This document shows, piece after piece, positions 18,201 to 32,190 of a stretch of DNA of 39,491 nucleotides. Numbering within the stretch: position 1 is the stretch's first letter; each line of letters begins with the position of its first letter. The stretch is from positions 1-39,491 of the IMG/VR virus record IMGVR_UViG_3300035670_000561; one strand, given 5' to 3'. This stretch comes from a virus. The notes under the pieces were generated by a model. It was not told the origin of the DNA. It searched no databases and was given only the letters and a program-made list of their open reading frames with translations. A program made the position numbers and the translations under genes.

Positions 18201-18312
18201 GCATCTGATGATAAAAAATCAATGCCTGCCACGCCTGGCGGTGGTCTTTACACATACCATTTAGGCACACTCGATAGGTATCCCCCACTTTGTGAATCGT
18301 TGGCAGCGACAT
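18136..18312 (-). CDS. small conserved cyanophage-type protein
   Basis: A 58-residue protein starting MSLPTIHKVGDTYRVCLNGM, then CKDHRQAWQALIFYHQMLNQ. I have an impression of similar small proteins from cyanophages; the function is unknown to me. It is read leftward after the sigma gene and overlaps the sigma 3' end by 65 bases in another frame. Its own 3' end overlaps the HNH gene from the opposite strand. The longer frame to 18318 would use a TTG start; ATG 18312 is preferred. Confidence 0.5.
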   Translation of the reverse strand: MSLPTIHKVGDTYRVCLNGMCKDHRQAWQALIFYHQMLNQATNPELLERELRSMNFDG

Positions 18313-19192
18313 GACCAAGTGGGGTGTCGTCCAAGGGGTTGCTCATCAGCATACGCAGGCGGTTGATGCCGCGTCGCTCAAGGTTTTGCAGTTTGGTCTT
18401 GTTCATGCCTAACTGCTTTTCCAAAGCGCTCCAAGTTACAGGCACGGCAAGGCTTCTGGCCTGCATTACTTGTTGCGTTGTTGGGTCTAAATACTTTGCA
18501 AAGTATTCCATCATTTGACCTATTTCTTGGCTTTTTGTTACATCATCTTCAAGGCAAGATGGGTCGGCAATCGTGTCACAAATTGACCCGCTATCTGCGT
18601 CGTTAATTTTCTGGTCAAGGCTGGTAACGCGGTAAGCGCGCTTCAGCATCATCGACAGCTCTTTGGTGTCCATTGCTATTGCTTCTGCCAACTCGCTAAG
18701 CGTCGGCTCACGGCCAAGCCTGTGTCCCATATCCTGCGCTGTGCGGTTGATTTTGAACAGCAGTTCATGCAGCGACGATGGCAGGCGAATCATTGCATCC
18801 TGCATGATGAGCGCCCGCGTGATGCCTTGGCGGATCCACCAATAGGCATAGGTCGAGAACTTGTAGCCGCGGCTTGGGTCGAACAGCTCAACGGCACGCG
18901 CAAGGCCGATATTGCCTTCCTGAATCAGGTCCATCAGCTCAAGCGTCTTGTTCTGCCGTCTGTCGTATTTGCGCGCTACATGGACCACGAGCTGCAGGTT
19001 GGATTGGATAAACCGCTGCCGTGCGCGTTCGCCGCTGCGCACTTCGCGCTTTTCATCGGGCGTCAAAGACCTTGTTAAATCCTTTAATTCTCTCCATTTC
19101 ACAACACGTCTGCCAAGTTGTATCTCTTGCTCCGCTGTTAGCAGTGGATACTTAGCAATACTGTTGAGATAGTCTTTGATGCTGTCGGCCAT
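18248..19192 (-). CDS. RNA polymerase sigma factor, sigma-70 primary/group 2 type
   Basis: A 314-residue sigma factor. Region 1.2 is DSIKDYLNSIAKYPLLTAEQ; region 2 reads NLQLVVHVARKYD, LMDLIQEGNIGLARAVELFD and GYKFSTYAYWWIRQGITRAL; region 3 follows from RLPSSLHELLFKI. In the 2.4 helix the -10 contacting Q and T (WIRQGIT) are kept. Region 4.2 is altered: MNKTKLQNLERRGINRLR replaces the usual VTRERIRQIEAKALRKLR, changing residues that read the -35 box. It probably redirects host RNA polymerase to phage promoters. It is the next-to-last gene of the leftward operon, which suits a switch to later transcription. Its start overlaps the divergent gene at 19194. Confidence 0.93.
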   Translation of the reverse strand: MADSIKDYLNSIAKYPLLTAEQEIQLGRRVVKWRELKDLTRSLTPDEKREVRSGERARQRFIQSNLQLVVHVARKYDRRQNKTLELMDLIQEGNIGLARAVELFDPSRGYKFSTYAYWWIRQGITRALIMQDAMIRLPSSLHELLFKINRTAQDMGHRLGREPTLSELAEAIAMDTKELSMMLKRAYRVTSLDQKINDADSGSICDTIADPSCLEDDVTKSQEIGQMMEYFAKYLDPTTQQVMQARSLAVPVTWSALEKQLGMNKTKLQNLERRGINRLRMLMSNPLDDTPLGHVAANDSQSGGYLSSVPKWYV

Positions 19193-19193
19193 G

Positions 19194-19433
19194 ATGAATC
19201 CACTGGTTCACACAATGGAAGCACAGTTCCATGGCGCTGCCAACGCTAGCATGTTGCGCCAGTTACATGCTGCAAAAGATTGGAACGCTTTGCTTGAATA
19301 TGCCCTGCTGTTAGCCGAGCAAGAGGCAAGCCAGCGTTCCCAAATCCAATGGCTAGCGGCAGAAGCCATGCGCTCATGCAGCATCCAAGACTGGCACTTG
19401 GCCGCGGCCAAAGACCTTGCTGGCCGTGACTAG
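19194..19433 (+). CDS. small helical protein on the opposite strand within the early module
   Basis: A 79-residue all-helical protein (MNPLVHTMEAQFHGAANASM, LRQLHAAKDWNALLEYALLL, AEQEASQRSQIQWLAAEAMR). The regular heptad-like Leu/Ala spacing and the sensible composition make it a likely gene; similar small proteins occur in cyanophages by my recollection. It is the only rightward gene in an 8-kb leftward block. Its start lies next to the sigma start codon, and its 3' end overlaps the dCTP deaminase gene by 60 bases. ATG 19191 is an in-frame alternative start. Function unknown. Confidence 0.58.
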   Translation: MNPLVHTMEAQFHGAANASMLRQLHAAKDWNALLEYALLLAEQEASQRSQIQWLAAEAMRSCSIQDWHLAAAKDLAGRD

Positions 19434-19925
19434 TTTGTCGTTGTTGTAATGGCCAACAGTGGCATAGCTGAGCGCTGGCCGTTGGCTCATGCGGAAAAAG
19501 ACCATCTGACCGATTTTCAGCCCCGGATAAATCGGGAGCGGTTGCAGTTGCCGCTGGTTCTTTAGCTCAAGCGTTAGCGTGCTGCCATGCCAGCCGGGGT
19601 CCGCGTAACCGGCATGCAGATTTTCGTAGCCCTCTCGTGCACGGCTTGACTTCAGAAAAAACAAGCCCGCGATGTCTTCTGGCATGTTGAACGTCTCCAT
19701 TGTCTGCGCCAGTACAAATTGCCCTGGCACCAGCTCGTAGGGATGTTCAGCGCTGTAATCCTTGATGGACAGCGGAATCATCTGCGCCGACTGGACTGAT
19801 TCGAGCATGATGAGGTCACCTAGCCGCAGGTCAAGGCTGGCAGGGTTAATCAGCTCTTCGTCGCAGTTCTGCACCAAGCCCTCATTGCGGATGAGGTCTT
19901 GGATTTCGGTATCACACAGAATCAT
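19374..19925 (-). CDS. dCTP deaminase / dUTPase family enzyme
   Basis: A 183-residue protein starting MILCDTEIQDLIRNEGL. Family motifs are INPASLDLRLGD, then FLKSSRAREGYENLHAGYAD, PGWHGSTLTLELKNQ and PIYPGLKIGQMVFF. The S-S-x-A-R-x-G and DPG-x-x-G-x-x-T-L-E patterns form the trimer active site in this family. It would convert dCTP to dUTP, or directly to dUMP in bifunctional members, feeding thymidylate synthesis. The 20 extra N-terminal residues of the longer frame (19985) lie in the upstream gene, so ATG 19925 is preferred. It overlaps the zinc-ribbon gene by 14 bases. Confidence 0.85.
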   Translation of the reverse strand: MILCDTEIQDLIRNEGLVQNCDEELINPASLDLRLGDLIMLESVQSAQMIPLSIKDYSAEHPYELVPGQFVLAQTMETFNMPEDIAGLFFLKSSRAREGYENLHAGYADPGWHGSTLTLELKNQRQLQPLPIYPGLKIGQMVFFRMSQRPALSYATVGHYNNDKLVTASKVFGRGQVPVLDAA

Positions 19926-20247
19926 TGTTCGCCGCCAATCCGGTGTACAGAGCATGCATGGGATGGTCCTTGTCATGCCGCCCATCAGCGGCGTACAACG
20001 CCTCTAGGTCGTCCTGGCGCTGTTGTTGTTCGATTGGGTTGCAGTCGGGGTTCATGTGTGGTTTTTTGCCGATGTAAATGATGTCGTACTTGGAGACCGA
20101 TTGCTCATGCGGCTGCCGTGTGTACCAGCGATGGTCACAGGCATTGCATTTGCGGCGGCGGATGATGCCTTTGTCGGTGCTGTTGGTGACTATCACATAG
20201 TTGCGATAGCTGCCGCATTTAGGGCATGGAACTTGAACGGCTGGCAT
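19912..20247 (-). CDS. zinc-ribbon protein, NrdR N-terminal-like
   Basis: A 111-residue protein whose first 45 residues form a zinc ribbon: CPKCGSYRNYVIVTNS then RRRKCNACDHRWYT. Spacing and the RRRKC-x-x-C-x-x-R-W-x-T pattern resemble the DNA-binding ribbon of NrdR, the repressor of ribonucleotide reductase genes, but the ATP-cone is missing. The C-terminal half is polar and rich in D, H and Q. It may be a small transcription regulator or a DNA-binding adaptor. It overlaps the RHH gene upstream by 29 bases and the deaminase downstream by 14 bases. Confidence 0.65.
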   Translation of the reverse strand: MPAVQVPCPKCGSYRNYVIVTNSTDKGIIRRRKCNACDHRWYTRQPHEQSVSKYDIIYIGKKPHMNPDCNPIEQQQRQDDLEALYAADGRHDKDHPMHALYTGLAANNDSV

Positions 20248-20473
20248 CTTCGAGGGTTTGCGCCATAACAGCAGCGCTGCGCAGCATAGTGCTCAGCTTG
20301 ACTGGTTTCATCTCCTTCCAGCAGGCGTAGCGAATGGCCTGCCGAAAGCCCATTGAAATGTTACCGTCGCCAAGCGCACGGGCTGCCTCGATTTCCTCTT
20401 GGCTCATGCGGATATTGACGGTAAAATTACGCCCTTTTCCTTTGGGGCGGCGGTCGTTTAACTTATCAGCCAC
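20219..20473 (-). CDS. ribbon-helix-helix-like small protein
   Basis: An 84-residue protein with a basic N-terminus (DKLNDRRPKGKGR), a beta strand NFTVNIRMS, then helices EEIEAARALGDG and ISMGFRQAIRYACWKEM. Strand plus two helices is the ribbon-helix-helix layout of Arc/CopG-type DNA-binding dimers. The tail (LRSAAVMAQTLEDASRSS) is helical. It is a plausible regulator of the early operon. It overlaps the DUF3310 gene by 16 bases. Confidence 0.6.
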   Translation of the reverse strand: MADKLNDRRPKGKGRNFTVNIRMSQEEIEAARALGDGNISMGFRQAIRYACWKEMKPVKLSTMLRSAAVMAQTLEDASRSSSMP

Positions 20474-20661
20474 TGCATATACCAGTTGGCTTTACGCAGT
20501 GATTCATTGCCGCCTTTGTGTTGTTCGCGCCAGATGTACTTAAGGACATTGCCCTTACAAAATCCGCGGAACTCTTCAGGTGTCAATGCAGCTTGTATGG
20601 CTTCGATACATTCGATGCCGCCTTGCGTGTAATGCTGCGGATGATTAACTAGGTCGGTCAT
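20458..20661 (-). CDS. DUF3310 protein
   Basis: A 67-residue protein with the DUF3310 signature: VNHPQHYTQGGIECIEAIQA, then FRGFCKGNVLKYIWRE and KGGNESLRKANWYMQWL. The family is common in phages, usually among nucleotide-metabolism and replication genes as here. Its biochemical role is not established to my knowledge. It starts inside the 50-residue gene at 20645-20797 and ends inside the RHH-like gene. Confidence 0.85.
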   Translation of the reverse strand: MTDLVNHPQHYTQGGIECIEAIQAALTPEEFRGFCKGNVLKYIWREQHKGGNESLRKANWYMQWLIS

Positions 20662-20797
20662 CTTGCATTAGCTCCATCAAGTTAAGGATGTGCGCTGCAA
20701 ATGCCGTATGCGTCATGACAGCATGGGTGCCCGGAGGCACCCCATAACTGTCACGCCACCATTCATCAAAAGCTACTTTGAGGGTGGCTTCGTCCAT
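20645..20797 (-). CDS. 50-residue conserved small protein
   Basis: ATG 20797 overlaps the SSB stop codon (ATGA). The product is MDEATLKVAFDEWWRDSYGV, PPGTHAVMTHTAFAAHILNL then MELMQDDRPS, ending at TAA 20645-20647. It is too short for most gene callers but well formed, and it fills the 135 bases between SSB and the DUF3310 gene. I recall similar EEWW-x-D-S-Y-G-x-PPGTHAVM proteins from cyanophages. Function unknown. Confidence 0.7.
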   Translation of the reverse strand: MDEATLKVAFDEWWRDSYGVPPGTHAVMTHTAFAAHILNLMELMQDDRPS

Positions 20798-21111
20798 CAG
20801 AAGACAGCCTCCTCTTGCTGACGTGGCGGCAGTGAAAAGTCCTGCACATCCAGCTCAAGCGACTGGCCTTGCGTGCCGTCTTTCTTTTCATAGGTGCGCA
20901 GCTTGCCGCGACCTGAGACGGTAACTTTTGAACCTTTGGTGAAATACTTCATCACCGTTTCAGAGCGCTTACCCCACACTTGGCAGTTAATCCAAGTGGT
21001 CTCATCTTTGCCGGTGGTGGTAGCAATAGTGAAGTTAGCAACTTGCGAGCTGCCAACATCTTTCAATTCAGGGTCACGGCCAAGGTTGCCGTGTGCAGTA
21101 ATGACAAGCAT
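20797..21111 (-). CDS. ssb: single-stranded DNA-binding protein
   Basis: A 104-residue OB-fold protein: MLVITAHGNLGRDPELKDVG, then VANFTIATTTGKDETTWINC, QVWGKRSETVMKYFTKGSKV and SGRGKLRTYEKKDGTQ. These are the bacterial-type SSB strands. The C-terminus ends EEAVF, a shortened echo of the acidic tip (D-D-D-I-P-F) that recruits partners. It would coat single strands during replication and Bet-mediated annealing, consistent with its place beside Bet and the exonuclease. Confidence 0.92.
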   Translation of the reverse strand: MLVITAHGNLGRDPELKDVGSSQVANFTIATTTGKDETTWINCQVWGKRSETVMKYFTKGSKVTVSGRGKLRTYEKKDGTQGQSLELDVQDFSLPPRQQEEAVF

Positions 21112-21113
21112 GA

Positions 21114-21335
21114 TCAGGGATTTAAAGGTGTGATTGAATTGGCTTCTTCAAAGGCCAGAACGTCCGCAAGGGCATATCTGACCCGTGATTCGCCAAGCGG
21201 TAGGCCGAAGCGTGGAACCGTGTAATGCGGTGGTCCTTGCTTGCGGAGCCGCTGCGCCTTGATGGTACTAGGTTTTAGCCCCCAGCGCACGGCTAATTGT
21301 TCAGTTGTTAGAAACAATTTCGTCCTCCTTTTCAA
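21114..21335 (-). CDS. helix-turn-helix DNA-binding protein
   Basis: A 73-residue protein: [37 protein letters not shown] and [14 protein letters not shown]. This is the winged-helix form of excisionase-like/MerR-type domains (helix-turn-helix, a PP-x-x-x-x wing, and the V-x-Y-x-x-x-D-V-x-x-F end). In phages such proteins act as small regulators or DNA-bending factors. No integrase is present, so regulation is more likely than excision. It overlaps the Bet gene by 35 bases, and TTG 21317 is a possible shorter start. Confidence 0.7.
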
Positions 21336-22053
21336 GCATCAACTGCAGCAACTTGTCGTGTTGCTCCTGCGTGATTTCGCCAGCCTCTAAGCGTGCGGTC
21401 ATGCGCGGTTGCAGCTCTTCAAGGTCCTTCAGGCTTTTGGCCTTGGCGATTGCCGCAGCGCCAGCAGTGAAGGTCTTATTGGTGTCCTTTGCCTTGACCT
21501 CAGGCAATGCAGGCGCAGGCTCGACGGCGGTGACGGTCACAGGTTCGGCCTGCTCCATCTCGTCGGTGGTATAGACACCAGACATGTCCGCCGGAAATGC
21601 TTTACGCAGCGCAAGCGCTTCGGAGCATTTGGCAATCATGGTGGCGGGCATCTTCGACCAAAGCCCTTGACCTGCGTTGTAATCGGCAAATCGTGCGACG
21701 CCAACGAACGGATGCTGGCTGCCCTTGCGGTGCACGATGGTCTTGGCCGCGGCAGGCGGTTTGGTGCTAAGCCATACGTCTTGCCATTGGCCATCTTCAC
21801 CGCACCAATGCGTTTCGCTGCCGTCTAGCTGTCCGGTACGCTCGGCAATAGCACGCAAGCCGTCGATTCCAGCTTGAATGGTCATCTTGCCGCCGCGCTT
21901 GATGGCGTAAATCTGCTTGCTGAATGGGTCAAGGCCAGTGCGTTGACAGGCATAGGCAAACAGCCTTAGCTCGTCGTTGCTGCAGCCCGGAGCAATGGTG
22001 CTACTGATGAGCTGCTGCTGGTCAGGTGTCCAAGTGGTAATTGCTGTCGTCAT
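21301..22053 (-). CDS. bet: Bet/RecT-family single-strand annealing protein
   Basis: A 250-residue recombinase of the lambda Bet group. Signature stretches are [50 protein letters not shown] and [20 protein letters not shown], followed by SGVYTTDEM. It anneals complementary single strands and can promote strand invasion-like events in phage replication and packaging substrates. The C-terminal 80 residues are a charged helical tail, variable in the family. It lies one base after the exonuclease gene, the standard two-component arrangement. Confidence 0.93.
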
Positions 22054-22839
22054 TTAGAAGGTTTCGGTTTGGATTGGATTTGATGCCCATTTGGGCAAGC
22101 TGAGGGTTTGCACCGTGTCGCTGTAGCCAGGCCACACATTTGCGGCTTGGCATCCGGCAATCACGTCAAGTGCATTGTCCCGCGTGGTTCGCCCTAATGC
22201 AAGGGCATCGGCGTCGAGTTCATACACCGCAACAGCGTGCGGGTAAGTCTTCTCGACTGCGACGAACACAAACCGCTCAGCGCCGTGCAGGCCGGCAAGA
22301 TAGTGCGCCGCCTGAACGTGGTAAGCGAAGGTTGCCACGCTGCGGGCAAATGCCTGCGGGCTGGCGTCGGTGGTCGTCTTGATATCAACCACCGTTGAGC
22401 CGAAGTACCAGTCAGGACGGCACTTGCAACGCATGCCACTGGATAGGTCATCCCACCAGAACGACTGCTCTGCCTTGCCGGTTTGCAGCAGCGCTGCTGC
22501 AGCAGGATGGTTGCGCACTGCAGCAGCCATGCCAAGCGCAAGAGCCATGTCGCTGCTGGTTACAGCTTCAATGCCTTCGGCTTCCATGGCGGCGGCCTGC
22601 TCTTTACCGGCTTTGGTGTTGCGTGCGCCGCAGACGCCATAGCGCTGCAGCAACTCATCCGGTTCAAGGATGGCGCAATGGGCAAGGCTGCCCAGCTTCA
22701 TCGCCGCCGTTGGCTCAACCGGCTTGCGGTCGGGGTCAACGTACCGGCTCCAGTAGTGGTAAGGCGACTGCATGACCGCCTTGAGATGACTGGCGCTGAC
22801 GGCTGGGTCAGCGTGGTACTGCTCGTTGGTGATGGTCAT
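22054..22839 (-). CDS. RecE-like PD-(D/E)XK exonuclease (DUF3799 type)
   Basis: A 261-residue nuclease. The N-terminal NEQYHADPAVSASHLKAVMQ and SPYHYWSRYV plus KLGSLAHCAILEP are typical of RecE-like/DUF3799 proteins. The active site is visible as CRPDWYF (metal aspartate) and VVDIKTTTD (D-x-K), followed by YHVQAAHYLAG. It should digest double-stranded ends from 5' to 3' and hand the strand to Bet. It overlaps the downstream-coded 66-residue protein gene by four bases. Confidence 0.92.
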   Translation of the reverse strand: MTITNEQYHADPAVSASHLKAVMQSPYHYWSRYVDPDRKPVEPTAAMKLGSLAHCAILEPDELLQRYGVCGARNTKAGKEQAAAMEAEGIEAVTSSDMALALGMAAAVRNHPAAAALLQTGKAEQSFWWDDLSSGMRCKCRPDWYFGSTVVDIKTTTDASPQAFARSVATFAYHVQAAHYLAGLHGAERFVFVAVEKTYPHAVAVYELDADALALGRTTRDNALDVIAGCQAANVWPGYSDTVQTLSLPKWASNPIQTETF

Positions 22840-23036
22840 GGTGCCACACCTTCGCGCAGTTGACGATGCAGCCGTGATGACGGTCCGTAGGTGGCATAGA
22901 CCTCGGGAAATGCCAGCAGCAGCCGCTCACGGTTGATGGGGTCAGCCTTGAGGCCAGTTTCAGCCAAGGACTTAAAAAAGCTGCCGGCGTATTGCGCCGC
23001 GGTGATGAAGGTCCAATAGCGGTCTTGGTCGGTCAT
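22836..23036 (-). CDS. small protein upstream of the exonuclease, unknown
   Basis: A 66-residue helical protein: MTDQDRYWTFITAAQYAGSF, FKSLAETGLKADPINRERLL and LAFPEVYATYGPSSRLHRQL. I do not know a family. Translation is coupled to the exonuclease gene (ATGA overlap at 22836-22839). Upstream on the coding strand comes a GC-rich hairpin, about 22 bases before the start, which may influence expression. Confidence 0.6.
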   Translation of the reverse strand: MTDQDRYWTFITAAQYAGSFFKSLAETGLKADPINRERLLLAFPEVYATYGPSSRLHRQLREGVAP

Positions 23037-23057
23037 AAAATGATGTTGGTAAGGATG

Positions 23058-23080
23058 AGGGGGCTTGCGCCCCCTTTTTT
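23058..23080 (+). terminator. Rho-independent terminator reading rightward
   Basis: AGGGGGC, loop TTGC, GCCCCCT form a seven-base-pair GC-rich stem, directly followed by six T residues on the + strand. Read leftward, the hairpin is preceded, not followed, by the A/T run, so it should act only on rightward transcripts. All genes nearby are leftward. It may therefore block antisense transcription, or end a rightward transcript that passes convergently through the early module. Confidence 0.75.
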
Positions 23081-23120
23081 GTTGCCGAGATTGGGCGCGG
23101 CTCTCGGCTGGCCGCGTAGG

Positions 23121-23318
23121 TCATGCCCACTCGACGGAGCAGCCCCAATCGGCCAGTTCTTCAAGCACCCAGCCAATCTGGCTCTTCGGGTACTGAATGG
23201 ACTGCGGCAGGATGTCCCCAGCGCGAGAAGCCAGCCACTTGCGGCCAGTTTCCGTCTGAGCGCTTACGGCCACCTGAGTGGTACCGAAGCCCTTGCCGGT
23301 GCAGAGAATGTCAGCCAT
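23121..23318 (-). CDS. small protein, unknown
   Basis: A 65-residue protein starting MADILCTGKGFGTTQVAVSA, continuing QTETGRKWLASRAGD, and ending with an acidic helix EELADWGCSVEWA. I do not recognise a family. The longer frame uses TTG 23369, but ATG 23318 is preferred because a possible promoter lies between. It is the first gene of a probable separate leftward unit. About 80 bases separate it from the next gene, and these hold the rightward terminator. Confidence 0.5.
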   Translation of the reverse strand: MADILCTGKGFGTTQVAVSAQTETGRKWLASRAGDILPQSIQYPKSQIGWVLEELADWGCSVEWA

Positions 23319-23341
23319 GGGTTCAACCCCGAACTGCACAC

Positions 23342-23369
23342 ATCCTACACCATGGTCCGCCGTGGTCAA
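23342..23369 (-). promoter_or_regulatory. candidate leftward promoter
   Basis: On the - strand TTGACC (23369-23364), a 16-base spacer, then TAGGAT (23347-23342) resemble sigma-70 -35 and -10 boxes. The predicted start of transcription near 23335 leaves a short leader to ATG 23318. It would drive the exonuclease-Bet-SSB-sigma unit independently of the helicase unit. The evidence is sequence resemblance only. Confidence 0.35.
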
Positions 23370-23371
23370 CC

Positions 23372-23722
23372 CTAGGCAGTCATATTCCGCAACAATGCCT
23401 CGGCATCCTCGACGCTGCGGGCAATGCCAGCAATGCCGCCTGCTGCCTGTACCGCCTCAAGCCACTGCTTCTGCTCTGGCTGCACCCTGCCGGTTGGCGT
23501 CTTGACCTCGATGCTGGTGAACACCGCTACCTGCTGGCCGACCATCTCCGGTGTAACCGTGCGCGTGGTCCAACCAATCAGGTCAGCGCTGCCCTTGCAT
23601 AGACCGAACTGCACAGGCCGGCCATTGGCGTCACGCAGTGTGCCAGTGTTATTGCGGAAGACTCGCGTGTCGCCTTTGCTGATGGCAAGGCGGATTTCCT
23701 GCTGAATGCGTTGTTCGCTCAA
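23372..23722 (-). CDS. VRR-NUC domain nuclease
   Basis: A 116-residue VRR-NUC protein. Typical features are the N-terminal SEQRIQQEIRLAIS, FRNNTG, GLCKGSADLIGW with the metal-binding aspartate, and TSIEVKTPTGRVQPEQKQWL with the E-x-K catalytic pair. Stand-alone phage members can cleave branched or flap DNA structures. Next to a helicase and recombination genes, resolution of replication or recombination intermediates before packaging is likely. It overlaps the helicase gene by four bases. Confidence 0.9.
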   Translation of the reverse strand: MSEQRIQQEIRLAISKGDTRVFRNNTGTLRDANGRPVQFGLCKGSADLIGWTTRTVTPEMVGQQVAVFTSIEVKTPTGRVQPEQKQWLEAVQAAGGIAGIARSVEDAEALLRNMTA

Positions 23723-25074
23723 ACCATGCCATGACGCTTGGCCAACCTAGCTTGATAAACCCGCTCTGCCCAGCCGCGTTTATAGCCGCGTTGCTGCGCC
23801 AGCTTGCGTAGGTCATCCAAGGACTGTGCGCTGCCTTGCTCGCGGCGTTGCTGGCGTTGTAGCTCTTGTAGCTCACCCTCAACCACCTTTAGCTCCCTGG
23901 CCTCCTGTGGCGCGAACACATGCCCGCACTCGCGGCAGACTTGCGCAGCGCTTGGGCTGGTGCTAAAACACTGCGGGCACACCTTGACCGATGGCGCTTG
24001 GTCGCGGTCGCGCTTGGCGGCGCCATCTAACGTCCATTCGCGTTCTTCTAGGTGATGACCGAGGCGCAGGGTATTGCCAACATGGTCAAGCACCACGGCT
24101 GTCTTGTTGCCACTGGGGCGCAAGCATCGGCCAATCATCTGCAGATGCAAGCCGACCGACTGCGTTGGCCTGAGCAAGATGCAGCCGCCGACGCTTGGCA
24201 CGTCCACGCCTTCGCCAATGAGTGAGCACGATGTGAGCACCTTTAGCCTGCCGGTGCCAAGTGCTGCTAGTAGGTCACTGCGCTGGTCCGTGGTCATGGT
24301 GCCGTCAATGCTGGCCGCGGCGATGCCTTGGGATAGAAATAGGGATGCCACGGCTTCAGCATGTGCCACCGAGCAGCAGAAGGCAATCGCAGTTTGGCCT
24401 GACAAGTGCTTTTTGTAGTGACTCACGCAGTCGCCCATGATGGTGACGACGCGCTCCTCGGCTTGCTTGGTGTCAAAGTCACCCATGCGCTTACGCAAGC
24501 CGCTGGCGTCAAAGCCCGGCGGTGCCAACACACGGGCAGCGGCGAGGTAGCCGTTATCAGTCAGCCACTGGGCTGATGGTCCTTGCACCATTGCCTCGTA
24601 GTGGTCGCCAAGCCCACGTCCGTCGCCTCTAACTGGTGTCGCCGTCACGCCCAAGACATGCGCCTTATGGAAGTGCTGCAGCACAGCAGCCCACTGATTA
24701 GCGCTGGTGTGGTGTGCCTCGTCAACGACCAGCAGATTGAAGAACTCCTGCGGCAGCTTGTGCAGCCTGCGGGCTAGCGTCTGCACACTGGCAACCTGCA
24801 CGGCATGGCTCAGGTCCATGCTGCGGCTGGATTGGATACGGCCATGTGTCACGCCCATGCCATTGAGCGCCTTGCTCGCTTGGTCCAGCAACTCAGCGCG
24901 GTGGACAAGGATACACACGCGGTTGCCTTTCTTGGCAGCGGACTGGGCGATGTAGCTAAAGCACACGGTCTTGCCGCCACCGGTTGGTAGCACAGCTAGG
25001 ACTGAGCGCTTGCCGAGCTGGTATTGCAGGCGGATGTCGGTAATCAGTTGTTGTTGGTAAGCGCGGAGTTGCAT
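23719..25074 (-). CDS. superfamily 2 DNA helicase
   Basis: A 451-residue helicase starting MQLRAYQQQLITDIRLQYQL. Motifs in order are LPTGGGKT (Walker A), VVDEAHH (DEAH box), GVTATPVRGDG (motif III), then TSCSLIGEGVDVPSVGG and HLQMIGRCLRPSGNKT (motifs V and VI). A C-terminal zinc ribbon reads CPQCFSTSP and VCRECGHVF, and a helical tail follows. It is similar to phage recombination/repair helicases of the UvsW/RAD25-like type. It probably moves branched DNA, with the adjacent VRR-NUC acting on the products. Confidence 0.92.
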   Translation of the reverse strand: MQLRAYQQQLITDIRLQYQLGKRSVLAVLPTGGGKTVCFSYIAQSAAKKGNRVCILVHRAELLDQASKALNGMGVTHGRIQSSRSMDLSHAVQVASVQTLARRLHKLPQEFFNLLVVDEAHHTSANQWAAVLQHFHKAHVLGVTATPVRGDGRGLGDHYEAMVQGPSAQWLTDNGYLAAARVLAPPGFDASGLRKRMGDFDTKQAEERVVTIMGDCVSHYKKHLSGQTAIAFCCSVAHAEAVASLFLSQGIAAASIDGTMTTDQRSDLLAALGTGRLKVLTSCSLIGEGVDVPSVGGCILLRPTQSVGLHLQMIGRCLRPSGNKTAVVLDHVGNTLRLGHHLEEREWTLDGAAKRDRDQAPSVKVCPQCFSTSPSAAQVCRECGHVFAPQEARELKVVEGELQELQRQQRREQGSAQSLDDLRKLAQQRGYKRGWAERVYQARLAKRHGMV

Positions 25075-25076
25075 AG

Positions 25077-25814
25077 CTATATCAAACTCATTTGTTGATT
25101 AATGGCAGATGACTCAATCGCGCCATTTGGAGCGCTAAGCACGCCGACAACGATGAAAGCATTTCTTTTGGATGCAAGATTACCAATAATAAAATAAGGA
25201 TTTCGATAACGATAAATTGACTGAAAAGGATTGCTGCGACCTGTTCTAATCGCTTCATACACATCCCATGCAACCACGGTTTTCTCAAAAGATCGCTTTG
25301 TGCCATCAACCATGCGATGACCCTTGACTTTCACTTTAAAGCCTGGATACCAAATACCTTTTTCTTCCATTAACTTGCATCTTTCCAGTTCTTTTGCGTC
25401 ACTTGGATCGCTTGGCGACAAATGCTCCTGCCATAATTTAAAACCGCGAGATGGAATCAATACGCCAATGCTTGACCTGTCCTCATTAAGCTCATTTTCA
25501 TACCTGTATTGGCCAAGGATTTTGTTGTGCAACTCTGTTTGCTCGCGCTGGCTTATGTTGACAGAACGGCCAAGAACCGAGCCGTATTGCCAAGTTTCGC
25601 GTCTGTTATCATTAGTCAAATTCTCTTTGTCGCCCTCAAAAGTGAATCGTTGCCAACGCTTAATAGCTGGTGAGCGATCAAGCCGAAATGGTAAGCAAAA
25701 TCTAAGGAATTGCTCAGATGGCTCATGAAATGCAATCGTGCAAATGTGTGGTTCGCGTTTGCGGCCAGCAATGACACGAGCCTGTGCTAAACAAACGCAA
25801 TCTTCAAAAATCAT
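25077..25814 (-). CDS. unrecognised protein, A/T-rich accessory gene
   Basis: A 245-residue protein starting MIFEDCVCLAQARVIAGRKR, with ICTIAFHEPSEQFLRFCLPF near the start. Other visible segments are IGVLIPSRGFKLWQEHLSPS, KVKGHRMVDGTKRSFEKTVV and YIIG-like strands near the end (NPYFIIGNLASKRN). No catalytic motif is evident. The early block (HICTIAF, then FLRFCLPFR) recalls an uncharacterised family of proteins with R-L-Y-P-x-P-F-R, but I am not sure. The gene is visibly A/T-richer than its neighbours, suggesting recent acquisition. ATG 25820 and TTG 25823 are alternatives; ATG 25814 has AGAGG at good spacing. Confidence 0.68.
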   Translation of the reverse strand: MIFEDCVCLAQARVIAGRKREPHICTIAFHEPSEQFLRFCLPFRLDRSPAIKRWQRFTFEGDKENLTNDNRRETWQYGSVLGRSVNISQREQTELHNKILGQYRYENELNEDRSSIGVLIPSRGFKLWQEHLSPSDPSDAKELERCKLMEEKGIWYPGFKVKVKGHRMVDGTKRSFEKTVVAWDVYEAIRTGRSNPFQSIYRYRNPYFIIGNLASKRNAFIVVGVLSAPNGAIESSAINQQMSLI

Positions 25815-26601
25815 CGCCATCAACCTCTTCTATCTTGGAGACCAAGTAATCGCCATGGCAGCGTTGCGGATAGCACCAGCAGCCAAGAACCTTGCCGCGT
25901 AATTCATCCAAACGATTGTGAAGGCTAAACTTTCGCGGAAAGAAGATTTCGTAAGAATCGCAAACCGTATCGCGGTCGCCATCGTCGGGTATTTCAAATG
26001 GATTACCCCAATCGCTGTTGCGATCAATGCGGGCAAATCTGCCAGTTGTTTTTGCCCAATGCAGTAAAGCTCTGTCGCTGTCTTGGTGCATGTTGGCAAC
26101 TACTATGCCGCCAGCTTCTACGATTGCTTTGCGCTTAAGTTCCGATTCTGACCATTCATATTCTGGTCTTACTTCTTCGACAGCCCGTGTAACAATCGCT
26201 TCAGTTAATCTGCCTTGGTTTTCATCCTTGGCGATTTCCTGCGCTTTGGTGTAGGCGGCGACAAGGGTTTCGTCGTCATTCTTAACGGAGACCAGTGGAC
26301 GTAAATGGGTTTCGGGCGTTGCCCCGACAAACTTAGGCCCGTTCGGGCCTAGCTCTCGCTTTAGCGCTTCTTCGACTTGAGCAGCGTGCAACTGTTTGCG
26401 GATTGTCCGCTCGTGCAGCTCAGGGAACTCTTCCATGCAGCAAGCAGTGAAGCTGCGGTAGCCGAGCGCCTTCCAGCCTTTTCGGCGGTCAAGGTCGTAG
26501 ATGCGAGCGCGCACTGTGTTGATGCCACGCTTAATGTCATCTACCGCCTGGCGGGCTTCAGCTTGTGTCATATCCGCATTGGACACTTCAATCGTGGTCA
26601 T
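25804..26601 (-). CDS. DUF4326 protein with N-terminal ParB/KorB-like helical part
   Basis: A 265-residue two-part protein. The first 150 residues are helical and charged (ADMTQAEARQAVDDIKRGIN, YRSFTACCMEEFPELHERTI), like the DNA-binding half of some phage ParB-like or methylation-associated proteins. The last 100 residues form a DUF4326 domain: VVANMHQDSD, RIDRNSDWGNPFEIPDDGDR, and GKVLGCWCYPQRCHGDYL. The conserved CWC-x-P-x-x-CHG suggests metal binding or catalysis; the role is unknown to me. It is the first gene of the leftward operon, facing the divergent operator, and overlaps the next gene by 11 bases. Confidence 0.75.
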   Translation of the reverse strand: MTTIEVSNADMTQAEARQAVDDIKRGINTVRARIYDLDRRKGWKALGYRSFTACCMEEFPELHERTIRKQLHAAQVEEALKRELGPNGPKFVGATPETHLRPLVSVKNDDETLVAAYTKAQEIAKDENQGRLTEAIVTRAVEEVRPEYEWSESELKRKAIVEAGGIVVANMHQDSDRALLHWAKTTGRFARIDRNSDWGNPFEIPDDGDRDTVCDSYEIFFPRKFSLHNRLDELRGKVLGCWCYPQRCHGDYLVSKIEEVDGDDF

Positions 26602-26674: not shown

Positions 26675-26839
26675 ATGGAGCTAGCTCACCCGCTTTCTGT
26701 CCAATTCACGGCTGAGCAGCTTGCCTGGCTTGATTCCCGCCGCGTTGCTGGTCTGTCTCGTTCCGCAGTGTTACGGCTCGTTGTCGAAGAAGCCATGCGC
26801 CTGCATCGTGACGGCATCTTGCCTGCTACTAAGCGATGA
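26675..26839 (+). CDS. 54-residue ribbon-helix-helix regulator
   Basis: ATG 26675 opens a frame reading MELAHPLSVQFTAEQLAWLD, then SRRVAGLSRSAVLRLVVEEA and MRLHRDGILPATKR. Strand (LSVQFT), helix, a GLSRSAVLR turn and a second helix form a classical RHH domain. Dimers bind short repeated operators. It is the first gene of the rightward replication operon, 16 bases after the dyad operator, and overlaps the primase-helicase start (ATGA). Autoregulation of the divergent promoters is likely. Confidence 0.78.
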   Translation: MELAHPLSVQFTAEQLAWLDSRRVAGLSRSAVLRLVVEEAMRLHRDGILPATKR

Positions 26840-29304
26840 CCATCCTTGACGCAGCACGCGGCAGGTGGCCTGACCTGCTGCAGCAACTTGCTGGCCTGAC
26901 GCCAGACCAGCTCACCGATAAGCACCAGCCGTGCCCGCTTTGTGGTGGCCGCGACCGTTACCGCTTTGACGACCAAGACGGCAGCGGCTCATGGTTCTGC
27001 AACAAATGCGGCGGCAAAGCCTGCACTGGCGGCGGCGGCAACGGCATGGACCTGCTGATGCGCCGCACTGGCTGGGATTTTGCCGAAGCAGCAAAGCGCA
27101 TTGAACAGCACCTGACCGTGATACCAGCACCGCCGACCGATGGCGCTGAGCATGTTTGGCGCTACACCGACACCTTTTATGTATGCCGTTTTGCCGGCAA
27201 GCGCATCCGTCCGCTGTGGTGGGATGGTGACGCATGGCGGTGGAAGGCACCACCATCACCGCGTCCGTTGTATTGGGCACGGCGTGATGTCAACCTGCCG
27301 CTGCTGATTGTCGAAGGCGAAAAGGCCGCTGATGCAGCCGCTGCACTGCTGCCAACCCATGCAGTGCTCACGTGGCCGTCAGGCTGCAAGGCCATTGACA
27401 AGGCCGACTGGTCGCCGGTATCCGGTCGCCGTTGCGTGCTATGGCCTGATGCCGACATGCCAGGCCGTGAAGCAATGGCCAAGCTGGCGCCGCGGTTATT
27501 GCAGGCTGGCGCAACACAGGTCCGCATCGTGCATCCGCCAGAAGGCGTGCCAGAAGGCTGGGACCTTGCTGATGCCGATTGGTCACAGGCGCAGGCAGCG
27601 TCACATCTGATGCGGCATCGCTCGGCGCCGGTTGAGATGCCCGAGCCGGTTGTCGAGCTTGAGTTAGCACCGATTGCCGAGCCAGAACCCATCCCGCAGG
27701 CCGATAGCTGCTTCACTTGCCTTGGCTTTGACAACGACTCCTTTTATTACCAGCCTCACAGCACTGGACAGGTCACGCGACTGTCACGCAGCAGCCATAC
27801 CGGAACCAATCTGGTTTCACTTGCGCCGCTCCCATACTGGGAAACCTTGTACCCAAGCCGCACCGGCGTCAACTGGACTGCAGCAGCCAGCAGTCTCTTT
27901 GAACGCCAGTCGCAGGTAGGCGTCTACAGCCCTGACCGCATCCGTGGCCGCGGCGCATGGTGGGATAAACGCTCAAGCGTGCTGCACCTTGGCGACCGTC
28001 TTGTAGTTGATGGTGCTAGCCGTGATGTCAGCGCTGGCGTTGATGGCAGCGCATACCTTTATCAGCGCCTTGCGCGGCTCCGTGGTCCTGGCGCTGCTGA
28101 GCCACTTAGCGACACAGAAGCCTTTGTCATCGCAGAGCTGGCCGAGCGCTTCCACTGGGAAGTGCCGGCATCTGGCCTGCTGCTGGCCGGCTGGGTTGCA
28201 CTGGCACCCATCTGCGGTGCACTGGACTGGCGGCCACATGCATGGCTCACGGCAGGCGCTGGCTCCGGTAAGTCCGCCATCCTTGACCGTTACATCTCGC
28301 CGCTGCTAGGCGACATGGGCTTGGTCGTGGCTGGCAACACCACAGAGCCCGGCATCCGTCAAGCGCTCCGCGCCGATGCGTTGCCCGTGGTTTTTGACGA
28401 GGCCGAATCCAATGAGCGCACGGACCAGCAGCGCATGCAGGCCATTCTTGGCCTAGCCCGTGTTGCCAGCTCGGAGTCCAAAGCCCACACGCTTAAGGGC
28501 AGCCCCGAAGGTGACACGCAGCGGTACACCATTAGGTCAATGTTTCTCATGTCGTCGATTGCTACTGCCCTGAAGCAGGGCGCCGACAAGTCACGCTTTG
28601 CGCAGCTCACATTGCGCAACCCAAATGAACTGCCAAAAGACGAACGTATCGCGCACTGGGAAGCACTCGACAAGGACCTTGACCGTTATGTAACAGAAGC
28701 TGTCGGCCAGCGATTGCAGGCACGAACCGTTGCACTCATACCTGTAATCAGAGAAAGCGTGCGCATCTTCACCCGCGCAGCAGCAGAGGCTTTTGATAGC
28801 CAACGCCTTGGCGATCAGTACGGCACGCTGTTAGCTGGCGCATGGTCTTTGCAGTCCAGCAAGGTCGTCACACGCGAACAAGCATGGCAATTGATTGAAC
28901 AGAACAACTGGGAACCGTATTCGCAATCAATTGAAATACCAGATGAAAAGCGCTGCCTGCAGCGCATCCTGCAGCATCAACTTCGCGTCGAAGGTGATAA
29001 AACTGTCACCCGCACTATTGGCGAGCTAGTAGACCTTGCCCTGCATCATGGGCACGACATGACCGTTACACCAGACCTTGCATCGGCCACGCTTGGCCGC
29101 AATGGCATCAAGGCGGAGCAGGGCTGCATCTGCGTATCGAACACCGCCAATGCCGTGGCTGGCATCCTGTCCGATACGCCGTGGAGCAACTGCTGGCCGA
29201 CCGTGCTGGCGCGTTTGCCTGGCGCCGAGAAGGTGGGCGTTATTTGGTTCAAAGGTTCAGGCGGTAACAGTCGAGCGACCAAAATCCCGCTTGAAGCGGC
29301 CTGA
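26836..29304 (+). CDS. primase-helicase
   Basis: An 822-residue replication protein. Residues 33-58 form a zinc ribbon of phage primases (CPLCGG... FCNKCGG, cysteines 33, 36, 55 and 58). A Toprim-like part follows, with LLIVEGEKAADAAAAL and RRCVLWPDADMPGREAM. The C-terminal half carries a DUF927/D5-like ATPase: GAGSGKSAILDRY (Walker A, about 473-485), then LPVVFDEAESNE (Walker B) and FLMSSIATA. It would unwind and prime DNA at the fork. No DNA polymerase gene is present, so its primers are probably extended by host Pol III on the phage clamp. It overlaps the RHH gene by four bases and precedes the iteron region. Confidence 0.9.
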   Translation: MTILDAARGRWPDLLQQLAGLTPDQLTDKHQPCPLCGGRDRYRFDDQDGSGSWFCNKCGGKACTGGGGNGMDLLMRRTGWDFAEAAKRIEQHLTVIPAPPTDGAEHVWRYTDTFYVCRFAGKRIRPLWWDGDAWRWKAPPSPRPLYWARRDVNLPLLIVEGEKAADAAAALLPTHAVLTWPSGCKAIDKADWSPVSGRRCVLWPDADMPGREAMAKLAPRLLQAGATQVRIVHPPEGVPEGWDLADADWSQAQAASHLMRHRSAPVEMPEPVVELELAPIAEPEPIPQADSCFTCLGFDNDSFYYQPHSTGQVTRLSRSSHTGTNLVSLAPLPYWETLYPSRTGVNWTAAASSLFERQSQVGVYSPDRIRGRGAWWDKRSSVLHLGDRLVVDGASRDVSAGVDGSAYLYQRLARLRGPGAAEPLSDTEAFVIAELAERFHWEVPASGLLLAGWVALAPICGALDWRPHAWLTAGAGSGKSAILDRYISPLLGDMGLVVAGNTTEPGIRQALRADALPVVFDEAESNERTDQQRMQAILGLARVASSESKAHTLKGSPEGDTQRYTIRSMFLMSSIATALKQGADKSRFAQLTLRNPNELPKDERIAHWEALDKDLDRYVTEAVGQRLQARTVALIPVIRESVRIFTRAAAEAFDSQRLGDQYGTLLAGAWSLQSSKVVTREQAWQLIEQNNWEPYSQSIEIPDEKRCLQRILQHQLRVEGDKTVTRTIGELVDLALHHGHDMTVTPDLASATLGRNGIKAEQGCICVSNTANAVAGILSDTPWSNCWPTVLARLPGAEKVGVIWFKGSGGNSRATKIPLEAA

Positions 29305-29552
29305 CCGTTAGGCACCGTTCGGCGGAAAACCGTTGGTATGACTGGAAACTAACGCTCCTAACGCTCCTAACGGTTTCTGGAGAGAGCCCCCCTATAAGAG
29401 AGAAGGTGTAGGTGTGTGGGTAGGTGGTGTGCGTTCTCTTGTATGTATGTATCTCTTTTAGCGTTAGGAGTGTTAGGTTAGGGGCTAAGCCCAGTGGTGG
29501 CGGGCGATTTCCGCCGAACGCCCACCGTTAGGCGACCGTTAGGACCGTTAGG
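29304..29552. repeat. iteron-like repeat region, candidate replication origin or operator
   Basis: A 255-base non-coding gap carries many copies of ACCGTTAGG-like units. Forward copies: 29304-29312, 29314-29322 (TTCGG variant), 29329-29336 (short), 29524-29532, 29535-29543, 29544-29552. Inverted tandem 9-mers of the form CCTAACGCT lie at 29348-29374 (three), with matching AGCGTTAGG and AGTGTTAGG at 29460-29477. Segments 29349-29365 and 29460-29476 are complementary over 17 bases with one G-T pair. Between them lie a G-rich run (29405-29431), three GTAT repeats (29441-29452) and a T-rich stretch. An iteron origin or an RHH-bound partition or control site are the two main readings. Confidence 0.7.
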
Positions 29553-29559
29553 AATCCGC

Positions 29560-29856
29560 ATGAAGGAAGTCAAAGTCCGCTTCAGCACTGAAGACTTGGC
29601 CGTTCTGGACCAGCAGGCAGCCATGGCAGGCGTCAGCCGCAGTGAACTCATTCGCAGCAGGGCGCTTGTTGCAAACTGTGACCGTGCACTCAGCGTGACC
29701 GCGTATCACCGTCTAGTGTCGGACGCCCTCACCAATGTGCGTGGTGATATGCCGCGCCGCATGGTTGAGCATCTCGTCGCGTTCGTCATCACATGGATCG
29801 CATCAAAATCACCGTCAAGCAGCAGCCCGTCATCAACCGACTGCATGACTGCATGA
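29560..29856 (+). CDS. ribbon-helix-helix DNA-binding protein next to iterons
   Basis: A 98-residue protein starting MKEVKVRFSTEDLAVLDQQA, then AMAGVSRSELIRSRALVANC. Strand VKVRFS, helix and the G-V-S-R-S-E-L-I-R helix are a CopG/Arc RHH domain. The C-terminal half is helical, ending in a Ser-rich tail. It starts eight bases after the last ACCGTTAGG unit, so autoregulation or iteron binding is likely. ATG 29560 is chosen over 29494, since the earlier frame would read through the repeats. It overlaps the next gene by 64 bases. Confidence 0.75.
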   Translation: MKEVKVRFSTEDLAVLDQQAAMAGVSRSELIRSRALVANCDRALSVTAYHRLVSDALTNVRGDMPRRMVEHLVAFVITWIASKSPSSSSPSSTDCMTA

Positions 29857-29993
29857 TTCAGGCGCTTGCATACGCAGCCGCCATTCGTGACAATGCACAA
29901 GATGACCAGCAACCGATACCGGCTGAACTGGTCCAATCGTTCACCGCTGATTACGAGCGGTTGATTTCCATCCTTACCGAAGCTGCCTCATGA
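29793..29993 (+). CDS. small helical protein ahead of the clamp gene, unknown
   Basis: A 66-residue protein starting MDRIKITVKQQPVINRLHDC, then MIQALAYAAAIRDNAQDD and FTADYERLISILTEAAS. No family is recognised. It overlaps the RHH gene by 64 bases in a different frame, and its stop overlaps the clamp start (ATGA), so it may mainly serve to couple translation to the clamp. Composition is sensible for a soluble helical protein. Confidence 0.55.
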   Translation: MDRIKITVKQQPVINRLHDCMIQALAYAAAIRDNAQDDQQPIPAELVQSFTADYERLISILTEAAS

Positions 29994-31027
29994 AACTCAT
30001 CACAACGCAAGCTGACCTCAGCTATGCCTTGCGCACCGTCGCGCCAGCCGTCAGCAACAACCCAAGCCATCCCATCCTGAGTAGTTGCCTCATTGCTGCT
30101 GCCGATGGCGCTATGACCATCACCGGCTACAACTTGGAGCTGGGCATCACTGTGCGTGTACCTGCTGCCATTGACACCGCCGGCACGGTTGCGCTTCCGT
30201 ATCGCCTGCTGGCTGGCCTTGTCAGTCGCATGGACGATGGGGAGCCTGTAACCCTGTCAGATGGCTCTGTAAGCGCCTCTAGCGGCTCTTACACCCTTGC
30301 CGCGTGTGATGCAGCCGATTACCCATCGCTGCCCATTGTAGAGGCTCCTAGCGCCGAGTTGGACCTAACCGCTGGTGTACGCGCCTGCATGGTGGCGGCA
30401 AGCAGTGATGCCAGCAAGCAAATCCTTCAGGGCATCCACATGGCCGATGGCGTCATGGAAGCCACCGATGGTCATAGACTCATGCGCGTGCCGGTAGGGC
30501 TCCCCAAGGGCATCGACCTCGTGCTACCGGCCACCACAATGAAGCTGCTGCAAGACCGCAGCATCACCGTGGCAGCAGCAGGTGGCCAAGCGGTTATCGA
30601 TGCCGGCGATGGCATCACCATCTACAGCCGCATCCTTGATGGCAAGTACCCCGACGTGGCCAAGCTCATCCCTGCCGAGTTTGAGCACACCATCACGCTT
30701 GACCGGCACCGCTTTGCCCGTGCACTGGAGCGTGTAGCGCTCATCGCAGACGCTCACAACAGCATCATCAAGCTGACCGCTGGCAAGCAGTTGACAATCA
30801 CCGCTGAAGCCGATGCCAACAACGGCACCGAAACCATCGCCTATACCGGCAGCGCCAAAGGCACATGGGGCTTCAACGTGCACTACCTGCTGGATGGCCT
30901 AAAAGCGATGCGTGGCAGTGATGTCATCACCATCTCTGCTAACGCATCAACAGCACCTGTAGTATTGCAGCCAGCAGAGGAATCTGGTATGACCTATCTG
31001 GTCATGCCGGTGCAAATCAGAGAATGA
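29990..31027 (+). CDS. dnaN: DNA polymerase III beta sliding clamp
   Basis: A 345-residue clamp, slightly shorter than bacterial DnaN (about 366). Features are the start MKLITTQADLSYALRTVAPA, NPSHPILSSCLIAA, TGYNLELGITV, then GIHMADGVMEATDGHRLMRV at the domain 1-2 turn, ILDGKYPDVAKLIP in the middle, and YLVMPVQIRE at the end. All three domains appear present. The ring would tether host replicative polymerase on phage DNA and recruit other clamp-binding proteins. It is directly followed by the methyltransferase (overlap of four bases). Confidence 0.92.
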   Translation: MKLITTQADLSYALRTVAPAVSNNPSHPILSSCLIAAADGAMTITGYNLELGITVRVPAAIDTAGTVALPYRLLAGLVSRMDDGEPVTLSDGSVSASSGSYTLAACDAADYPSLPIVEAPSAELDLTAGVRACMVAASSDASKQILQGIHMADGVMEATDGHRLMRVPVGLPKGIDLVLPATTMKLLQDRSITVAAAGGQAVIDAGDGITIYSRILDGKYPDVAKLIPAEFEHTITLDRHRFARALERVALIADAHNSIIKLTAGKQLTITAEADANNGTETIAYTGSAKGTWGFNVHYLLDGLKAMRGSDVITISANASTAPVVLQPAEESGMTYLVMPVQIRE

Positions 31028-32190
31028 CATCCATTAAGGACCTCAAGTCCGACCATAAAAACGCCCGCAAGCGTACAGATCGCTCCGCCAAACTCATCGC
31101 TGAATCGTTGCAGCGTTATGGCGCGGCTCGCAGCATTGTCATCGACGAAGAGAACCGTATCCTTGCGGGCAATGGCACCATCGAAGGCGCCAAGGCAGCA
31201 GGCATCAAAAATGTCCGCGTCATCGAAACCGATGGCACCGAGATCATCGCCGTTAAGCGCACCGGCCTATCAGAAGACGAAAAGGTTGGACTGGCACTAG
31301 CCGACAACCGCACCAGTGACCTGTCCGATTGGGACAAGGACATGCTGCAGCAACTCAGCGAAGAGCATGACATCGCCCCATGGTTTGACGCCGATGACCT
31401 AGCTGCCATCCTTGGTGAAGCTGAGCAGCTACCGACTGAAGGCTTGACTGATGCGGATGACGTACCCGAGGTACCGGCAGAGCCCATCACCAAGCCAGGT
31501 GACCTATGGATTCTTGGTAATCACCGCTTGCTGTGTGGTGACAGCACTTACGTGCTAGCCGTTGAGAGATTGATGGATGGGCAGAAGGCGGACATGGTGT
31601 TCACCGATCCGCCTTACAACATTGGCTACCAAGACATGGGCGCCAAGTTTAAAAAGATTGCAAACGACAAGATGAGCGATAATCAGTTTTTGGACTTTTT
31701 GCGCTCAACGCTGATGCCTTGCGAAGTAATGTATGTCTGCTGTTCTTGGCAATACGCGCATCTGTTCAAGCAAGCTCTATTGGAAATCGAAAAACCTGCA
31801 AAGTCGATGATCGTCTGGGATAAAGTGAATCCAGCGCAAAACCTCGATCTTTACTACAAGCAGCACGAAATCATCTTTTATCACGGACCGTTTGGCGGGC
31901 AGTCTACTGTTCGCGGAGATGTCTGGCAGCTTAAGCGACAGCGCAACACTTTGCATCCAACGATGAAGCCGGTTGAGTTGATTGAGATGGCGTTGCAAGA
32001 CCACCCTGACCGAAAGCTAGTGTTTGATGGCTTCGGCGGCTCTGGCAGCACTCTCATTGCCTGTGAACGCCAGCACCGCCACGCACGCCTCATGGAACTC
32101 GACCCCGCCTACTGCGATGTAATTGTTCAACGGTGGCAGGATTTCACTGGTAAACTCGCTACCCTTGAATCACAACCCGAGGCGTTCTAA
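31024..32190 (+). CDS. ParB-domain fused DNA methyltransferase (beta class)
   Basis: A 388-residue fusion. Residues 1-130 are a ParB-N-like domain: SLQRYGAARSIVIDEENRIL, AGNGTIEGAKAAGI and EKVGLALADNRTSDL. The methyltransferase part carries FTDPPYNIGY (catalytic DPPY, motif IV) before FDGFGGSGSTLIACE (motif I, S-adenosylmethionine binding). This order marks beta-class N4-cytosine/N6-adenine enzymes. No cognate restriction enzyme is seen, so it probably protects phage DNA from host restriction or marks DNA for packaging. The middle (about 31650-31960), which contains the target-recognition part, is A/T-richer than the flanks. Confidence 0.9.
   Translation: MTSIKDLKSDHKNARKRTDRSAKLIAESLQRYGAARSIVIDEENRILAGNGTIEGAKAAGIKNVRVIETDGTEIIAVKRTGLSEDEKVGLALADNRTSDLSDWDKDMLQQLSEEHDIAPWFDADDLAAILGEAEQLPTEGLTDADDVPEVPAEPITKPGDLWILGNHRLLCGDSTYVLAVERLMDGQKADMVFTDPPYNIGYQDMGAKFKKIANDKMSDNQFLDFLRSTLMPCEVMYVCCSWQYAHLFKQALLEIEKPAKSMIVWDKVNPAQNLDLYYKQHEIIFYHGPFGGQSTVRGDVWQLKRQRNTLHPTMKPVELIEMALQDHPDRKLVFDGFGGSGSTLIACERQHRHARLMELDPAYCDVIVQRWQDFTGKLATLESQPEAF

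Follow-up and report, generated by a model that had tools for sequence, protein, structure and literature searches.

The locus analysed here raises the question of how a phage marks the start of its own genome replication and of which protein reads that mark. The window, i.e., the whole stretch of DNA under study, is a virus record of 39,491 bases, in which a dense array of short repeats lies between a primase-helicase gene and a sliding clamp gene. Three genes define its surroundings:

26836 to 29304, plus strand: primase-helicase gene, 822 aa, the proposed initiator binding the array (Pfam Zn_Ribbon_Prim, PHROG DNA primase)
29560 to 29856, plus strand: RHH-like gene, 98 aa, adjoining the array (weak NikA-like/RHH_1 match)
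29990 to 31027, plus strand: DNA polymerase sliding clamp gene (Pfam DNA_pol3_beta domains 1-3)

The array is very probably the replication origin of the phage, and its units would be read by the phage's own primase-helicase. This reading is supported at the sequence level by the array itself, the fixed positions of its units, their concerted change between lineages, a covariation found exclusively in the wing of the primase-helicase and the joint exchange of the wing domain and the array. The original prediction had placed an origin first among its hypotheses and proposed to check whether relatives retaining the neighbouring genes also keep the units; they do keep them, the word changing in concert, and the hypothesis is well supported. 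The covariation of the unit with the C-terminal wing of the primase-helicase, which is the main point, had no place in that prediction. Nor did the cumulative GC skew that it suggested as a check reveal a clear origin signal, since over the whole contig it is lowest at the end, and a weak local minimum lies at 31.4 kb.

The array starts about 2 bases past the stop codon of the primase-helicase gene (29304) and comprises 12 heptamer sites with at most one mismatch to CGTTAGG at 29306-29552, seven of them exact and five carrying one mismatch. As anticipated, there are thus at least eleven copies in both orientations within about 250 bases, the region is non-coding between the primase stop at 29304 and the RHH start at 29560, and the centre holds GTAT repeats and a T-rich stretch. 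The layout is as follows:

29306 to 29312, plus strand: outer left unit, CGTTAGG, exact
29316 to 29322, plus strand: outer left unit variant, CGTTCGG, one mismatch
29348 to 29354, minus strand: inner left unit, CGTTAGT, one mismatch
29357 to 29363, minus strand: inner left unit, CGTTAGG, exact
29366 to 29372, minus strand: inner left unit, CGTTAGG, exact
29373 to 29461, no strand: centre between the inner unit groups, proposed melting region, containing AGAGAGCCCCCCTATAAGAGAGA and CTTGTATGTATGTATCTCTTTT
29462 to 29468, plus strand: inner right unit, CGTTAGG, exact
29471 to 29477, plus strand: inner right unit, TGTTAGG, one mismatch
29476 to 29482, plus strand: near-unit, GGTTAGG, overlapping and possibly incidental, one mismatch
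29514 to 29520, minus strand: outer right unit variant, CGTTCGG, one mismatch
29526 to 29532, plus strand: outer right unit, CGTTAGG, exact
29537 to 29543, plus strand: outer right unit, CGTTAGG, exact
29546 to 29552, plus strand: outer right unit, CGTTAGG, exact

Such a density is not expected by chance. One 7-mer occurs seven times in 253 bases, while no 7-mer exceeded four copies in 1000 dinucleotide shuffles of the same stretch; in shuffled whole genomes the 7-mer maximum was six copies, reached once in 20. Outside the array, the whole 39.5 kb contains only two further exact copies of CGTTAGG. The inner groups, at 29348-29372 on the minus strand and 29462-29482 on the plus strand, flank a centre of 89 bp that is only mildly AT-rich. 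Because the units are inverted, the flanks of the centre form complementary arms (29346-29365 and 29460-29479, with 90% pairing over 20 nt), which do not constitute a separate feature.

The array is not particular to this record. Four scans of viral contigs yielded about 230 loci, 150 of them distinct after de-duplication, and clustering at 97% gave 77 clusters. About 10-12 units are kept in nearly all viral relatives, at near-constant distances from the primase stop, and the array lies directly 3′ of the primase-helicase gene in relatives down to about 59-66% identity. Their layout consists of three units in plus orientation and three in minus orientation, a centre of about 90 bp, then two plus, one minus and three plus units, the two groups around the centre being common to 75 relatives. 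The slot occupied by the minus-strand variant at 29514 in the window holds a true unit in relatives, e.g., at position 216 on the minus strand in L095. The unit word varies by lineage and is near-uniform inside one array. The words found are GTTAGG, GTNAC (mostly CGTAACA/TGTTACG or CGTTACA), GTGAGG, GTGAGA and GTAAGA, the last sometimes mixed with GTCAGA or GTTAGA. All of these lineage words match [C/T]GTNA[C/G][A/G], and the same classes emerge from the top 6-mer counts without this pattern. Different units can be found between primases that are up to 99.8% identical in their core.

The centre is less constrained in sequence than in length. Across 75 relatives it measures about 91 bp with a mean GC of 46%, its sequence is variable and often made of simple repeats, and a GTATGTAT-like motif occurs in 25 of the 75. 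The simple repeats of the centre, in the window (29373-29461) and in relatives, include CT, GT and TATTA. Many lineages, and also phage phi1422, keep AGCCCCCCTTATA on the left of the centre and GTATGTAT or TCTAT with a T-run on the right. The quadruplex potential ascribed to the G-rich strand holds for the window, where a two-tetrad G pattern is present; the same pattern occurs in only 5 (plus strand) and 10 (minus strand) of 75 relatives, so the quadruplex is not conserved. Strong local DNA hairpins of 12-15 bp are seen in the spacers between outer and inner units in lineages such as L190, L224 and L246; they are possibly single-strand priming signals of some lineages, not a general property. 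Arm hairpins were considered as a general feature and rejected, being absent in many lineages (mean z of -1.2 on the left and -0.8 on the right). Since hairpins are strong in some lineages and absent in others, they are no defining part of the array.

The changes of the unit word can be followed into the primase-helicase itself, where they are accompanied by changes in two residues of a C-terminal domain:

28921 to 29301, plus strand: C-terminal winged-helix domain, aa 696-822, proposed origin-binding domain (AlphaFold2 pLDDT 93.5)
29239 to 29241, plus strand: codon of V802, in the wing strand; serine at 802 accompanies G at unit position 4 (covariation)
29245 to 29247, plus strand: codon of W804, where the wing strand ends; GTNAC accompanies R, GTNAGG accompanies W, and GTNAGA accompanies Y or H (covariation)

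Of the 77 clusters, 46 were binned as GTNAC; residue 804 is arginine in all 46 of these and in no other cluster. It is tryptophan in 13 clusters, all 13 GTNAGG, and tyrosine in 16, all 16 GTNAGA if the hybrid array of L194 is scored by its left half; the two clusters with histidine comprise one GTAAGA and one GTAAGG (L142). One of the 46 GTNAC clusters, L243, was mis-binned through one weak unit, its actual repeat being GTAGAC in ten copies, and the result for residue 804 is unchanged without it. All 822 primase columns were scanned in the 68 full-length clusters with a cut-off of U>=0.95. Unit base 6 is fully predictable from one column alone, residue 804 (R with C; W, Y or H with G). Among the GTNAG types, G at base 4 is likewise fully predictable from a single column, residue 802, where it goes with serine. 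Within the first 284 residues no column does better for position 6 than a U of 0.52; residue 804 scores 1.00. When traced on a helicase-core tree (aa 290-695), the unit class switches 14 times or more. Counts by cluster exaggerate independence, and the strict sign test is confined to six pairs: in 6/6 independent pairs on well-supported branches, residue 804 changes as expected (p 0.03). Because the unit word changes in step with one or two residues of the primase-helicase, the start signal appears largely predictable from the protein sequence. Assembly chimerism may affect individual contigs, but it cannot explain the overall pattern, which recurs in many contigs from different samples.

Natural exchanges between close relatives offer a second view of the same relationship. 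The helicase cores of L219 and L227 are 99.8% identical and the flanking DNA is about 95% identical on both sides, while the stretch that begins 300 bases ahead of the primase stop and ends about 300 bases beyond it is only 35-71% identical. Winged-helix domain and array thus moved together in a single exchange; the RHH protein differs by about one residue and the clamp is unchanged. The comparison of L057 with L052 gives the same pattern. L095 (GTGAGG) and L102 (GTTAGG) share 90-95% identity across the larger part of the primase, and their divergence is greatest in the last part of the primase and in the array. The confinement of the covariation to residues 802 and 804, together with this cassette exchange, suggests that the C-terminal domain sets iteron specificity. 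A hybrid array occupies the first 260 bases after the primase stop in L068/L194 (IMGVR_UViG_3300016265_001324): its left half carries GTGAGA, matching its own Y804 primase, and its right half GTTACA. It may be a recombinant with a breakpoint in the centre or an assembly chimera.

The predicted structure places both residues on one strand of the wing of a C-terminal winged-helix domain. The model of aa 285-822 is of moderate quality (pLDDT 71.5), and the Foldseek neighbours of its helicase part are the NrS-1 helicase, SaPIbov1 Rep, PriRep1 and the poxvirus D5/E5 proteins, NrS-1 being the best fold match (E 1e-4) and SaPIbov1 Rep and PriRep1 having a prob of 0.9 or more. An SF3/D5-like or MCM-like helicase followed by a C-terminal winged helix is thus found, in a model of moderate overall quality. 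A separate model of the C-terminal domain (aa 696-822), built from 60 sequences, shows a winged helix with high confidence (pLDDT 93.5). Foldseek gave no significant match for this domain alone; in VIA-align its best matches are TcpK and SaPIbov1 Rep 443-552, with a modest Z of 4.8 each and an rmsd of 3.5-3.6 over 83 and 91 residues, respectively, followed by SCCmec Cch (3.4) and PriRep1 (2.5). Profile search of solved structures found no homologue among SaPI Rep or P4 alpha proteins, and the fold match to SaPI-type Rep may reflect remote homology. The P4 origin-binding domain is not among the fold matches, an absence that proves nothing. In the model, residues 802 and 804 are domain positions 107 and 109, in a strand spanning 103-109, just before the hairpin that connects it with the next strand (116-123). 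Side chains at a spacing of two along a strand point to the same side.

The relationship was also followed beyond the discovery set. For Synechococcus phage S-H1, GTTAGG was predicted beforehand from V-I-W and then found in the array. Among distant isolated phages, 34-41% identical, Bdellovibrio phage phi1422 (34-38%) has arginine and 12 GTWAC units directly after the primase, with the inner-pair layout of the window and a GTATGTATCTATATTTC stretch resembling that of the window. Acjo_20 (34-38%) has arginine and 14 GTWAC units upstream of the primase, and MQ-4 has lysine and 16 GTWAC units about 1.6 kb downstream of it. No array was found in Bordetella PY223 or Microcystis Mwe-JY13. KLER1-1 (L255; 37% identity) is an exception to the code, having arginine yet GTAAGC-type and GTTAGC-type repeats. 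Together with L243 (R, GTAGAC) and L142 (H, GTAAGG), it indicates that the code is incomplete far from the window. Two interleaved repeat families, TGTAAGC-like and GTGCTAACAA-like, lie just after the primase at 48700-49168 of L255. Downstream of the primase in L242/L243, GTAGAC occurs ten times alongside R804, a word outside [C/T]GTNA[C/G][A/G].

Other readers and other functions can be envisaged for the array. The units could be template sites at which the primase domain starts primers, as the NrS-1 polymerase does at TTTGGTTA, rather than binding sites of the winged helix. Units are indeed present on both strands, and the best fold match of the helicase part is NrS-1, whose primase recognises short template motifs; the covariation, however, lies in the C-terminal wing, and no column of the N-terminal 284 residues tracks the units well, which makes this reading improbable. 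Priming inside the array may still be a second use of it. The second hypothesis of the original prediction, an operator or partition site, fares slightly worse; here the neighbouring RHH protein would bind the array and thereby regulate its own gene, the clamp operon or segregation. The RHH gene starts 8 bases past the last unit, and its product weakly matches the NikA-like and CopG families, which bind short repeats. However, the gene is absent in 52/77 clusters that keep the array, and its product is near-identical in L219 and L227 despite their different units, so that the RHH protein is not the unit reader; the ribbon K-V-R-F is, besides, common to GTTAGG, GTNAC and GTAAGA phages. We consider this reading quite unlikely.

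It is very unlikely that the arms are kept for their pairing in DNA or RNA, in a terminator, attenuator or cruciform, and that this pairing, instead of protein binding, drives the sequence. The predicted 17-base arms (29349-29365 and 29460-29476) do pair, matching at 16/17 positions, and spacers between units form strong local hairpins in some lineages. Yet pairing gives no reason for the direct copies to change along with the inverted ones, as they do, and the change follows protein residues 802 and 804; local hairpins are absent in many lineages, and Rfam returned no match from 26.5 to 31.1 kb. Equally slight is the chance that the array serves packaging or late-promoter control and adjoins the primase gene by accident. 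The terminase does lie 3 kb downstream, yet the unit type tracks the primase wing, and in the more distant phages the array stays next to the primase or not far from it, although it precedes the gene in Acjo_20 and lies some 1.6 kb past it in MQ-4.

For the array as a replication origin read by the primase-helicase, we infer binding, ring loading, melting, a bidirectional start and the source of the polymerase as follows. The C-terminal winged helix of each helicase subunit would bind one [C/T]GTNA[C/G][A/G] unit. From the covariation and the model, residue 802 would read unit position 4, and residue 804 positions 6-7, in the major groove. Chemistry would lead one to expect arginine at a C:G pair, whose G lies on the other strand; no standard rule accounts for W, Y or H as readers of GG or GA. 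The two inverted unit groups would load two helicase rings facing apart across the central 90 bp; this positioning is proposed by analogy with SaPI Rep, which appears to bind its iterons as two hexamers. The rings would then melt the central 90 bp, the attached primase domain would make primers, and bidirectional replication would start with the phage clamp and probably a host polymerase. Indeed, no family A, B or C DNA polymerase was found in the record, which makes use of a host polymerase for phage replication likely. More tentatively, and with somewhat less confidence than doubt, the two wing residues may form a readable code through which phages repeatedly switch origin identity, either through exchange of wing domain and array as a cassette or through conversion of a dozen units in concert; relatives or satellites in the same cell would thereby be unable to fire one another's origins.

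In its anatomy, the system of the window works, by analogy, like the SaPI, SCCmec and P4 kind, i.e., a known kind of mechanism. In satellite phage P4, primase and helicase are likewise fused in one initiator, the alpha protein, which binds iterons with a C-terminal winged helix. The SCCmec initiator Cch is among the fold matches of the C-terminal domain, and the isolated C-terminal helicase domain of Cch2 binds short repeats just downstream of its operon; in that system, however, the primase is separate and there are three AAGTG repeats, as opposed to a dozen heptamers in two inverted groups. More generally, the C-terminal domain of SaPI and SCCmec initiators binds iterons just downstream of their own gene. 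The closest layout is that of the Pri-Rep origins of phage-inducible chromosomal islands (SaPIbov1 Rep, E. coli PICIs), in which a proposed melting region lies between two iteron sets right after the 3′ end of the initiator gene, the iterons being read by the C-terminal domain of the helicase; Rep 443-552 of SaPIbov1 also resembles the winged-helix domain of the window. Unlike these islands, the system described here belongs to tailed phages that encode capsid, portal, tail and terminase themselves, and primase and helicase form one protein with a zinc-ribbon primase, for which no sequence similarity to the island Reps was found.

Two further systems share single aspects. Geminivirus iterons are conserved in position and layout, vary in sequence among close relatives and match the cognate Rep, which is, however, an unrelated rolling-circle initiator of a single-stranded DNA genome. 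TcpK of plasmid pCW3 is a winged helix whose beta-wing reads tandem 9-base repeats in the major groove and is a precedent for wing reading; it differs in being a small conjugation accessory protein that acts at oriT and is not a helicase. The two-residue wing code and the switching of units appear to be new, and no paper on this phage origin or on the wing code was found among open-licence papers. The island-type layout, described as unique to phage-inducible islands, would extend to tailed phages with their own virion genes. The code is testable and would make the origin sequence of many uncultivated phages predictable from the protein alone. How origins change specificity is a long-standing question for iteron replicons, and the near-isogenic natural pairs L219/L227 and L095/L102 bear on how and why they do so without breaking.

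The genes around this locus complete the picture of the window. Downstream of the clamp, at 31024-32190, lies a gene whose product matches ParB-like proteins in its N-terminal part and DNA methyltransferases in its C-terminal part, and the minus strand at 18248-26601 encodes a sigma-70-like factor, a dCTP deaminase-like protein, an SSB, a RecT and an ExoVIII-like nuclease. Virion genes are also present (terminase, portal, head, tail tape measure and tail fibre), which sets the window apart from phage-inducible islands, defined as elements that lack virion genes of their own and depend on a helper.
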